Assembly: GCA_018829205.1 (NCBI GenBank)
Contig: JAHJUE010000005.1
Span: 62,001 to 126,000, forward strand
Length of the DNA: 64,000 nucleotides
DNA from: Bacteroidota bacterium
GTDB taxonomy: Bacteria; Bacteroidota; Ignavibacteria; Ignavibacteriales; Melioribacteraceae
Direction of reading: 5' to 3'
The notes under the pieces are model-generated. The model was not told the DNA's origin. It was given only the letters and a program-made list of their open reading frames with translations, and searched no databases. Numbering within the stretch: position 1 is the stretch's first letter; each line of letters begins with the position of its first letter. A program made the translations under genes and the position numbers. This document shows positions 497-3,719 of the stretch, one piece after another.

Positions 497-727
497 TCAT
501 TTAAAATTTAAATAAGTATACTTATTTTGATACTGGTTTAATAAGAAATTTAAATCTTTAAAATAGTTTAATACACTGTCCCTATTATCCGTTATAGCTT
601 TTGATCGCATTTCGGAAAAAATTATTGATGCTTTTGCTTCCATTCCCATAATATCATTAAGCAGTTCTTTATTATCTATTTCCTGGAAGGCTTCAATGGT
701 ATTATGCAAAACATTTTCATCTCTCAT
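497..727 (-). CDS. Small hypothetical protein (76 aa), last gene of the candidate sigma-54 operon
   Basis: I do not recognise this protein. It is mostly hydrophilic and predicted helical, has no signal peptide or membrane segment, and ends in an aromatic-rich stretch (NQYQNKYTYLNFK). It is probably real because a strong Shine-Dalgarno (AAAGGAG) sits about 7 bases upstream of its ATG, and it follows the zinc-ribbon gene on the same strand with a 69-bp gap. Its position suggests co-expression with the NifX-like, TonB and zinc-ribbon genes. No function can be inferred beyond that. Confidence 0.6.
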   Translation of the reverse strand: MRDENVLHNTIEAFQEIDNKELLNDIMGMEAKASIIFSEMRSKAITDNRDSVLNYFKDLNFLLNQYQNKYTYLNFK

Positions 728-2178: not shown

Positions 2179-2195
2179 TACAAAATGCGGGCCAG
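2179..2195 (-). promoter_or_regulatory. Candidate sigma-54 (-24/-12) promoter of the NifX-like/tonB operon
   Basis: On the minus strand this reads CTGGCCCGCATTTTGTA, close to the sigma-54 consensus TGGCAC-N5-TTGCW. The GG is present, with 10 bases to a GT where GC is usual. It sits about 40 bp upstream of the NifX-like ATG and directly downstream of a gene encoding a sigma-54 activator. The match is by eye, with a C-for-A change in the -24 box and a T-for-C change in the -12 box. Confidence 0.6.
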
Positions 2196-2288
2196 GAAAG
2201 AAGGATTTTAATACTTATGAATCGGCTTAAAAAGAAGATTAATATAAAACAAGGCCGATTATGACGATGCGGTTTTTCAACACTTATT

Positions 2289-2303
2289 TTGCAACAGTTG
2301 CAA
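2289..2303. promoter_or_regulatory. Perfect 15-bp palindrome, candidate enhancer (UAS) for the adjacent sigma-54 activator
   Basis: TTGCAAC-A-GTTGCAA is a perfect 7+1+7 dyad. It lies immediately beyond the stop codon of the activator gene and about 100 bp upstream of the candidate -24 box, the usual distance for enhancer sites of bacterial enhancer-binding proteins. A second looser dyad (AATCGGC/GCCGATT, about 2223-2263) lies between it and the promoter. Confidence 0.5.
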
Positions 2304-3719
2304 TTATGAAACGAAATTTATTTTATATTTATTTAATTTTCGCCAAAGAGTTGAACGGTTAATCCCGAGTTCTTCGGCGGTATTAATTTTATTATAATTG
2401 TTTTTTTTAAGGGCTGTAATAATAATTTCTCTTTCAGCTATTTCTTTTGGTTTAAGATGTATGTTATTTGTCCCGGTTGTTTTGGAATTACTTGTAATTT
2501 CTAAAGGCAGGTCGCGCGTTTGAATTACATCTTCCTTGCACATAACAAATGAATGTTCAATAATATTTTCAAGCTCTCTAATATTTCCAGGAAAATCATG
2601 ACTCATTAATATTTCAATCACCTCATCGCTTACTCCTGAAATTAATTTCCCCATTTTGTTATTAAGTTTTTCAATGAAGTGAGAAATCAAAAAAGGAATA
2701 TCCTGTTTTCTTTCAACCAGCGGAGGCAATACAATTTTAAGCACATCCAATCTGTAAAAAAGATCGTCCCGGAATTTATTTAACAAAATTAATTCCTTTA
2801 AATCTACTTTTGAAGCGGCTATTATTCTAACATCTGTTTTAATAGAATCGTTTGCTCCCAAAGGCTCAAATTCTTTTTCCTGCAGAACTCGCAGAAGTTT
2901 TACCTGGGTTGACTGAGAAAGTGATTCCACCTCATCAAGAAAAAGTGTGCCCCCTTTTGCGATGGTGAATCTGCCAGGTTTGTTTTTTTTTGCGTCTGTA
3001 AATGCGCCTTTAACATATCCGAACAGTTCGCTTTCCAGTAATGAATCCGGCAAAGCGCCGCAGTTGACGGCAATAAAAGGGCCTTTTTTTCTATTACTCA
3101 AATTATGAATTGCGCGGGCGAAAAGTTCCTTGCCCGAGCCGCTTGGGCCTTGAATTAAAACTGTGCTTTCGCTTTCGGCAATTGTCGGTAGAGTATCAAA
3201 TATTTTTAATATGTTATGATTTTTTGATACAATATCCTGATATGTATAACTGCTGTTTATTTCTTTTCTTAGTTGTACAATCGGTGATAAATCGGTAAAA
3301 GTTTCAACGCCTGCTATTGGATTCCCTTTTTCGTCTTTAATTACCGAAGTACTTATTCTTACCGCAATTTCTTTTCCTCTTGAAGTTAGGATGTTTTGAT
3401 ATTGATTTATAATATCTTTCCCAGTATTTAAGCTAATTTTCATAGGGCAGGAGTTTTCGCAAATATTGGATCTAAATACTTCATAACAATATTTGCCTAG
3501 CGCATTTTCTTTTTTAACGCCTGTTAATTTTTCGGCGGATTTGTTGAAATAGGTAATGATAAGATTTTTATCTACCACCAAAACAGAATCAACAATATTA
3601 TCTAAGATAATTTCCGCGTAATTTGAAGGCAGTTTCTTTTTTAATCTTTCATTCATTTTAATATGAATTTGTTTGCTGCTTATTAAACTATACTCACGAT
3701 TTCTGCCTAAAGATAGCAA
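2304..3719 (-). CDS. Sigma-54-dependent transcriptional activator (PAS-AAA+-Fis)
   Basis: A 471-residue enhancer-binding protein. Residues about 35-145 form a PAS sensor with a cysteine cluster (C78, C87, C91 in [15 protein letters not shown]). Residues about 160-395 are the AAA+ domain, with Walker A GPSGSGKE (191-198), the sigma-54-contacting loop GAFTDA (238-243) and Walker [11 protein letters not shown]. The C-terminus is a Fis-type helix-turn-helix ([15 protein letters not shown]). An internal ATG at residue 22 is an alternative start. It probably controls the downstream minus-strand set through the palindrome at 2289-2303 and the -24/-12 element. The ligand is unknown; the cysteines suggest a metal or redox signal. 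Confidence 0.93.

Follow-up and report, generated by a model that had tools for sequence, protein, structure and literature searches.

The DNA analysed here, a 64-kb stretch that we call the window, probably contains an OrpR-type sigma-54 control unit with apparently one target and swapped cargo, for which a mechanism of activation can be proposed. The unit is well supported as anatomy and by conservation; its signal and its purpose we infer. We regard it as a variant of OrpR-type control that carries a TonB cargo and not as a new kind of system.

Results

Layout of the locus

A first-pass annotation of this DNA had described an activator gene, a palindrome, a promoter-like box and genes for a NifX-like protein, TonB, a zinc ribbon and a 76-residue protein, and all of these were recovered in place on the minus strand (Table 1). 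Its proposal of a local sigma-54 unit holds; the relationship to the regulators of orange-protein (ORP) genes and the second half of the enhancer were absent from it and are described below. All the genes point in the same direction. The gap between the activator and NifX-like genes is 164 bp, the box lies 94 bp beyond the palindrome, and the spacers that separate the NifX-like gene, tonB, the zinc-ribbon gene and the 76-codon ORF are 56, 24 and 69 bases, in that order. An alternative TTG start would add 21 codons to the activator.

Table 1. Features of the putative control unit and its operon, numbered from the first base of the window.
Feature	Position	Strand	Basis
PAS-AAA+-Fis sigma-54 activator, 450 aa from ATG	2304-3656	-	Pfam
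Enhancer site 1, perfect 15-bp palindrome TTGCAACTGTTGCAA	2289-2303 (core 2290-2302)	-	sequence
Enhancer site 2, degenerate, GTTGAAAAACCGCATC	2266-2281	-	place and spacing as in relatives
-24/-12 (sigma-54) promoter-like box TGGCCCGCATTTTGTA	2179-2194	-	motif scoring and relatives
Predicted NifX/ORP-fold protein, 112 aa	1801-2139	-	AlphaFold2 and Foldseek
TonB, 222 aa	1076-1744	-	PF03544
Small zinc-ribbon-like protein (CISC...CPVC), 84 aa	797-1051	-	sequence; Pfam/NCBIfam matches below cut-off
76-codon ORF	497-727	-	weak homologue in sister locus

The activator and its relationship to OrpR

The activator matches the Pfam families Sigma54_activat (221.6 bits), HTH_8 (50.2 bits) and PAS_9, and GAFTDA is present in its translation. 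Judged by its sequence it is a sigma-54 enhancer-binding protein, with the AAA+ domain, the GAFTGA-type loop and the Fis-type HTH that define this class. Its predicted model has a pLDDT of 85.7. The domain order is that of the NifA/PrdR-type PAS sigma-54 activators, and PrdR is the top NCBIfam match, at 374.9 bits and thus far under the cut-off of 795.

Relatives were collected by scanning genome contigs with a PAS-domain alignment and taking the best 80 of 258 loci, which span Ignavibacteriota, Calditrichota, KSB1, Thermodesulfobacteriota, Bacillota, Cloacimonadota, Lentisphaerota and others. An activator ORF was located by script in 72 of them (the exceptions being L093, L104, L107, L109, L114, L120, L130 and L132). 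The motif C-x8-C-x3-C is present in the PAS domain of all 72, a count that is biased for the first cysteine, because one of the two patterns used for retrieval contains it, but not for the other two. In an alignment of 32 chosen rows, consisting of the window and 31 of the 62 listed, C57, C66 and C70 are invariant (32/32). Beyond the set of 72, one activator of the order (L187) has a changed cysteine spacing, as judged by eye, and an activator on contig C3 of this same genome lacks the motif. The latter belongs to an activator-NifX pair (L060:5720-7852) with a TGGTCTGATTATTGTT box (0.70) in its 84-bp gap and, by eye, an integrase-like gene near it. Switches of this kind elsewhere adjoin genes for metal-sulfur-cluster proteins in anaerobes. 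Of the 66 related activators placed in the tree discussed below, 33 lie near Mrp/ORP genes, as assigned by a loose similarity label.

The combination of C-x8-C-x3-C in the PAS domain with GAFTDA marks the window activator as OrpR-type by sequence, OrpR (DVU2106) being known here by description. A 2021 study of OrpR reportedly found that redox is sensed through an Fe-S cluster in the PAS domain. OrpR of Desulfovibrio vulgaris is described as a single-component sigma-54 activator with GAFTDA (PMC4641369), and the sites at which it acts are palindromes that lie at -88 and -131 as counted from its sigma-54 promoters (PMC3897727). A sigma-54 activator, GAFTDA and palindromic sites are common to the orp operons and the window unit. 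The two differ in what they control, since OrpR governs ORP/Mrp genes whereas the window cargo consists of tonB, the zinc-ribbon gene and the small ORF. They differ also in the nature of the evidence, which is experimental for orp regulation and comes from sequence for the window. No ORP/Mrp genes are present in the window operon; this genome has its own ORP/Mrp-like cluster by another activator, on contig C7. There (L062, C7:130000-144638, and L005) the cluster is divergent from a 600-aa activator. By eye, the C7 activator has two PAS-like segments, the second with C-x8-C-x3-C, and the cluster includes several Mrp-like ATPases. Three of the cluster's genes are of the NifX type and exceed the Pfam cut-off.

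MrpORP matches over the cut-off were found in seven genomes of the order of L140 (titled Desulfovibrionales). Six of the clusters were fetched. C-x8-C-x3-C and GAFTDA occur together in the activators of two; a third cluster has an activator of another sort, lacking the motif, and no activator is seen in the stretches around the other three, of which one is a short contig. The seventh genome has a cysteine-motif activator with GAFTGA, followed by a NifX-like gene and then ORP/Mrp genes. Downstream of the activator in two MrpORP clusters, a protein that resembles the NifX-like one and has a CGA motif can be read by eye from DNA where no ORF was called.

The first-pass annotation had called the operon metal- or redox-responsive. 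The second of these terms is a reasonable one, because the activator has an OrpR-type cysteine-bearing PAS domain, and by analogy this protein would sense redox or Fe-S. For the first, the sequence evidence consists of the NifX fold and of metal-transport cargo in a few distant loci.

The NifX-like protein

The product of the first gene in the operon scores 15.9 bits against PF02579, under the gathering cut-off of 26.3, and weakly matches the Di-Nase end of the MrpORP model (E 1.8e-9). AlphaFold2, run on 28 sequences, gave a model with a mean pLDDT of 88.7 for which Foldseek returned TM values of 0.86 with 2yx6, 0.74 with the ORP structure 2wfb and 0.73 with the NifX structure 9ian. Fourteen PDB chains were matched at E ≤0.001; four are PH0822 and the other ten are, by title, dinitrogenase-cofactor, NifB, NafY, ORP, NifX, TM1816 or MTH1175 proteins. 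The model thus predicts a NifX/ORP fold, a likeness to the NifX/NafY/orange-protein (Di-Nase) family that is one of fold, the sequence match being below cut-off.

C63 and G87 are invariant in 28/28 aligned NifX-like proteins. This set was restricted to proteins of <200 aa with E <1e-8, picked by similarity to Ignavibacterial members; it omits L067, which has no such cysteine, as well as L082, L098 and L126, and a truncated (L108) and a short (L118) sequence were also left aside, giving 28 of 30 listed rows. The cysteine, in the motif IC[DGN]G, is invariant across the aligned activator-linked group and sets it apart from the PF02579 family. Proteins of the NifX/ORP type bind metal-sulfur clusters (PMC6345978). 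The window protein probably binds a metal or an Fe-S cluster.

A putative two-part enhancer

The palindrome TTGCAACTGTTGCAA has no second exact copy, either in the window or elsewhere in the 4.59-Mb genome. As a 7+1+7 palindrome it is unremarkable and alone proves little: 24 such palindromes of any sequence are found in the window, and one arises in 235 of 5000 shuffles (4.7%) of the AT-rich gap. Conservation in relatives is what raises the palindrome and the box above chance; for the enhancer, its absence behind 20 further activators of this genome adds to this. In the gaps between activator and NifX-like genes a recurrent layout is apparent, in which TGCAACTGTTGCA (or TGCGACTGTCGCA) is followed, 20-22 bp after its start, by GTTGCA-N4-TGCAAC. 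This two-part enhancer beats all 200 shuffles in 17 of the 33 gaps scored, the window included (three of 36 gaps were omitted, two as too short and one as containing N). The exact 13-mer of site 1 is shared by the window, L078, L095 and L129. Site 2 of the window, although degenerate, matches 9 of 12 specified positions and starts exactly 21 bp from the start of the site 1 core, and so agrees in position and spacing with the second site of its relatives, which is well formed.

The motif was derived from the scored sequences themselves, and the independent control is provided by the other activators of this genome alone. The genome has 30 Sigma54_activat matches, of which 25 are strong. Among the 20 regions scored, out of 23 other activator loci supplied, the top composite was 15 versus 22 for the window, and none (0/20) carries the enhancer. 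Within the window itself there is no composite match of at least 20 besides the enhancer.

The first-pass annotation had staked its reading in part on conservation of the palindrome near orthologous operons. This expectation is borne out in the same regulator clade, where, with the window not counted, 10 of 12 scored gaps beat all 200 shuffles for the enhancer, but not in the nearest sister locus. The latter (L064, which also encodes TonB) has a different palindrome and a composite at chance (70/200 shuffles). The window operator resembles those of other family members, and it is absent from the two Desulfovibrionales clusters with a cysteine-motif, GAFTDA activator.

A palindrome whose first base directly follows the TAA of the activator gene might instead be the terminator or an RNA hairpin of that gene, and its abutment on the stop codon favors such a role. 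The predicted stem has only 6 pairs (-3.8 kcal/mol) with no T run, the palindrome is not listed by a terminator scan, and the palindromes of relatives are arranged as two operator-like sites. The weak stem and the missing T run led us to reject the terminator, which we consider extremely improbable, and we continue to treat the palindrome as half of a putative enhancer.

The promoter-like box

The box TGGCCCGCATTTTGTA has the GG, a GT for GC at -12 and one mismatch at -24, for a total of 2 mismatches to the GG-N10-GC-type consensus; similar variants are present in some relatives. A single RpoN is encoded in the genome. Among 2000 shuffled versions of the gap, 14 reach the score of the box; over both strands of the entire window three sites do so, TGGCCCGCATTTTGTA being one of them. 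A plain scan for the consensus with ≤3 mismatches found 33 sites against 49 expected and thus no enrichment. In 23 of 36 gaps, again counting the window, no more than one shuffle in 100 equalled the best sigma-54 box, and in the relatives the boxes occupy similar places. Since the best box among the 20 control regions scored 0.83, nearly the 0.85 of the window, the box alone is not discriminating. Measured from start to start, site 1 and the box are 98-126 bp apart in the ten same-clade gaps just described and 108 bp apart in the window. The 100 bp that separate the enhancer from the box contain no exact IHF site.

Alternatively, transcription that starts at a housekeeping promoter, or that continues out of the activator gene, could also, or mainly, express the NifX-like gene and tonB, with the palindrome and box as minor elements. 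Consistent with this are the shared direction of the genes and the 164-bp gap, and sigma-70-like matches are common in such AT-rich DNA (22 found vs 16.6 expected). We nevertheless judge it improbable, since enhancer and box are kept at a near-fixed spacing across phyla and the enhancer is missing behind the 20 other activators, observations that fit sigma-54 control of the operon.

Conservation and probable exchange of cargo

Besides its own genome, the NifX-like gene was found in 4 of 57 near relatives, at five loci, all five with an orthologous activator (58-63% identical) just upstream. In a class-wide draw, 23 of 391 genomes, the own genome included, gave a NifX match at E ≤0.001. Six further NifX loci were fetched from the class, and four of these have such an activator in the stretch, including L187 with its changed cysteine spacing; no activator lies within the stretches fetched for the other two, L185 and L186. 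Their NifX-like genes are at L185:6334-6678 and L186:5162-6692, and L185 has an NrfD operon.

Viewed from the activator, 32 of the 62 loci with enough downstream DNA have a NifX-like gene among the three genes that follow and no more than 1 kb away; this count leaves out 10 of the 72 loci because they have <1.5 kb downstream. Handles that stand for the same DNA (e.g. L038 and L064) were treated as one locus. By this rule the remaining 30 have no NifX-like gene; the ORF picker can miss such genes, and in L070 the NifX gene is 1.08 kb off, beyond the distance limits.

In a tree of activators of at least 400 aa, chosen by similarity, the window activator pairs with that of L064, the other NifX-TonB locus (99/95), and both fall within a clade of 16 rows (100/100). 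The cargo of this clade is diverse: six rows have ferredoxin, NrfD and cytochrome, one has a cytochrome only, three have TonB, two have no NifX neighbor and the other four differ from these: L065 has ZnuA/ABC-3, L071 has ArsP_2, L069 has what by eye is a thioredoxin-reductase-like gene, and L108 runs into a contig end. In L067, TonB is three genes after a different NifX. At L039, L068, L072, L075, L078 and L091 the activator-NifX pair is followed by a Tat-type ferredoxin, an NrfD-like membrane protein and a multiheme cytochrome, and several of these six loci also have, by eye, a kinase-like and a response-regulator-like gene. In the KSB1/Calditrichota loci L065, L067 and L071 the module lies upstream of ZnuA plus an ABC-3 permease or of an ArsP_2 heavy-metal permease. 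Because the nearest branches outside the clade mostly carry ORP/Mrp genes, an exchange of cargo appears to be the simplest reading of this tree, whose rows were chosen by similarity.

The cargo also bears on the signal. The unit may be real, yet the PAS cysteines may bind another metal (e.g. zinc or molybdenum), and the operon would then be a response to metal scarcity. The ZnuA and ABC-3 permease cargo of one sister module (L065) and the ArsP_2 cargo of others (L071 and, by similarity, L067) point this way, as does the binding of metal-sulfur clusters by NifX/ORP-type proteins (PMC6345978). We think it unlikely all the same. Electron transfer, with the six ferredoxin/NrfD/cytochrome c rows and the one with a cytochrome alone, is the commonest cargo in the clade, and OrpR is reported to be an Fe-S redox sensor.

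Other potential targets in the genome

Sites with ≤2 mismatches from TTGCAACNGTTGCAA number 41 in the genome, versus 12 for the reversed pattern. Nearly all of this excess is in coding-like frames, and we found no explanation for it: 39 of the 40 other near-palindromes are in stop-free frames of at least 130 codons, and the only exception lies where a gene begins that by eye resembles secF. A wider regulon was considered and rejected, as only 4 of the 40 (L205, L209, L210 and L224) have a box-like sequence (score ≥0.78) 60-200 bp downstream. The second halves at these four match at 4-6 of 12 positions. Three of the four are in stop-free frames that span 202-233 codons, and the other is the site at the secF-like start. 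A search that combined genomic near-palindromes, box and second half did not find a second target, and by this sequence evidence the activator apparently has one.

TonB and the remaining genes

With 75.6 bits against PF03544 (cut-off 24.6), the TonB of the operon has the family's C-terminal domain, and a hydrophobic N-terminal segment and a proline-rich linker can be read from its sequence. TonB energizes the uptake of nutrients across the outer membrane. This copy is distinguished by its position in a putative sigma-54 operon in which there is neither an ExbD match nor a receptor gene. Among the loci examined, only the window and L064 have TonB directly after NifX. The genome has 11 TonB_C matches, three ExbD matches, all outside the operon, and a TonB paralogue with 64% identity (L236:2563-3222, contig C39), and for these reasons the window protein is probably a second, condition-specific TonB. 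By eye, the C39 paralogue adjoins a 660-aa receptor-like gene and has a sigma-factor-like gene near it. The earlier proposal that the operon supplies TonB energy to receptors is an ordinary inference from such a gene.

The zinc-ribbon protein has weak Pfam and NCBIfam matches under the cut-offs and a homologue with 35% identity in the sister locus. The 76-codon ORF has no NCBIfam match, and its two Pfam matches are weak and fall under the cut-off. A weak homologue (31%, E 3e-4) encoded far downstream in the sister locus (L038:12856-13116) suggests that the ORF may be genuine. Among the papers searched, none combines TonB, sigma-54 and Ignavibacteri-, and none combines orange protein, NifX and TonB.

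Discussion

We propose that the activator would bind the palindrome and the weaker partner site 21 bp on, and that, so bound, it would reach the sigma-54 RNA polymerase on the box through a DNA loop and open the promoter. By analogy to OrpR, opening would take place when the PAS domain is reduced or loaded with its cluster. The NifX-like protein would be made first and may serve as the metal handler of the operon or in feedback on the activator, and expression of the operon would increase the amount of a TonB paralogue dedicated to this purpose. Uptake across the outer membrane might thereby be boosted if the cell is anoxic or limited for metal or Fe-S.

A more speculative idea, which we hold only tentatively and think somewhat doubtful, is that the activator and the NifX-like protein form a portable sensor cassette. 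The NifX cysteine would load or remove the PAS cluster, thereby exerting feedback, and the cassette with its paired enhancer would have moved before unrelated operons, which in the loci described here are ORP/Mrp, ferredoxin-NrfD-cytochrome, zinc importer, heavy-metal permease and TonB operons.

If the proposed control is correct, anaerobic redox (or metal-cluster) status would be tied directly to the energy supply of the outer membrane, and OrpR-type control would reach past the orange-protein genes. The NifX-like protein would become a testable partner of the regulator, and the predicted operator TGCRACTGTYGCA, with a second site about 21 bp on, would offer a search handle for the targets of this family in uncultured anaerobes.
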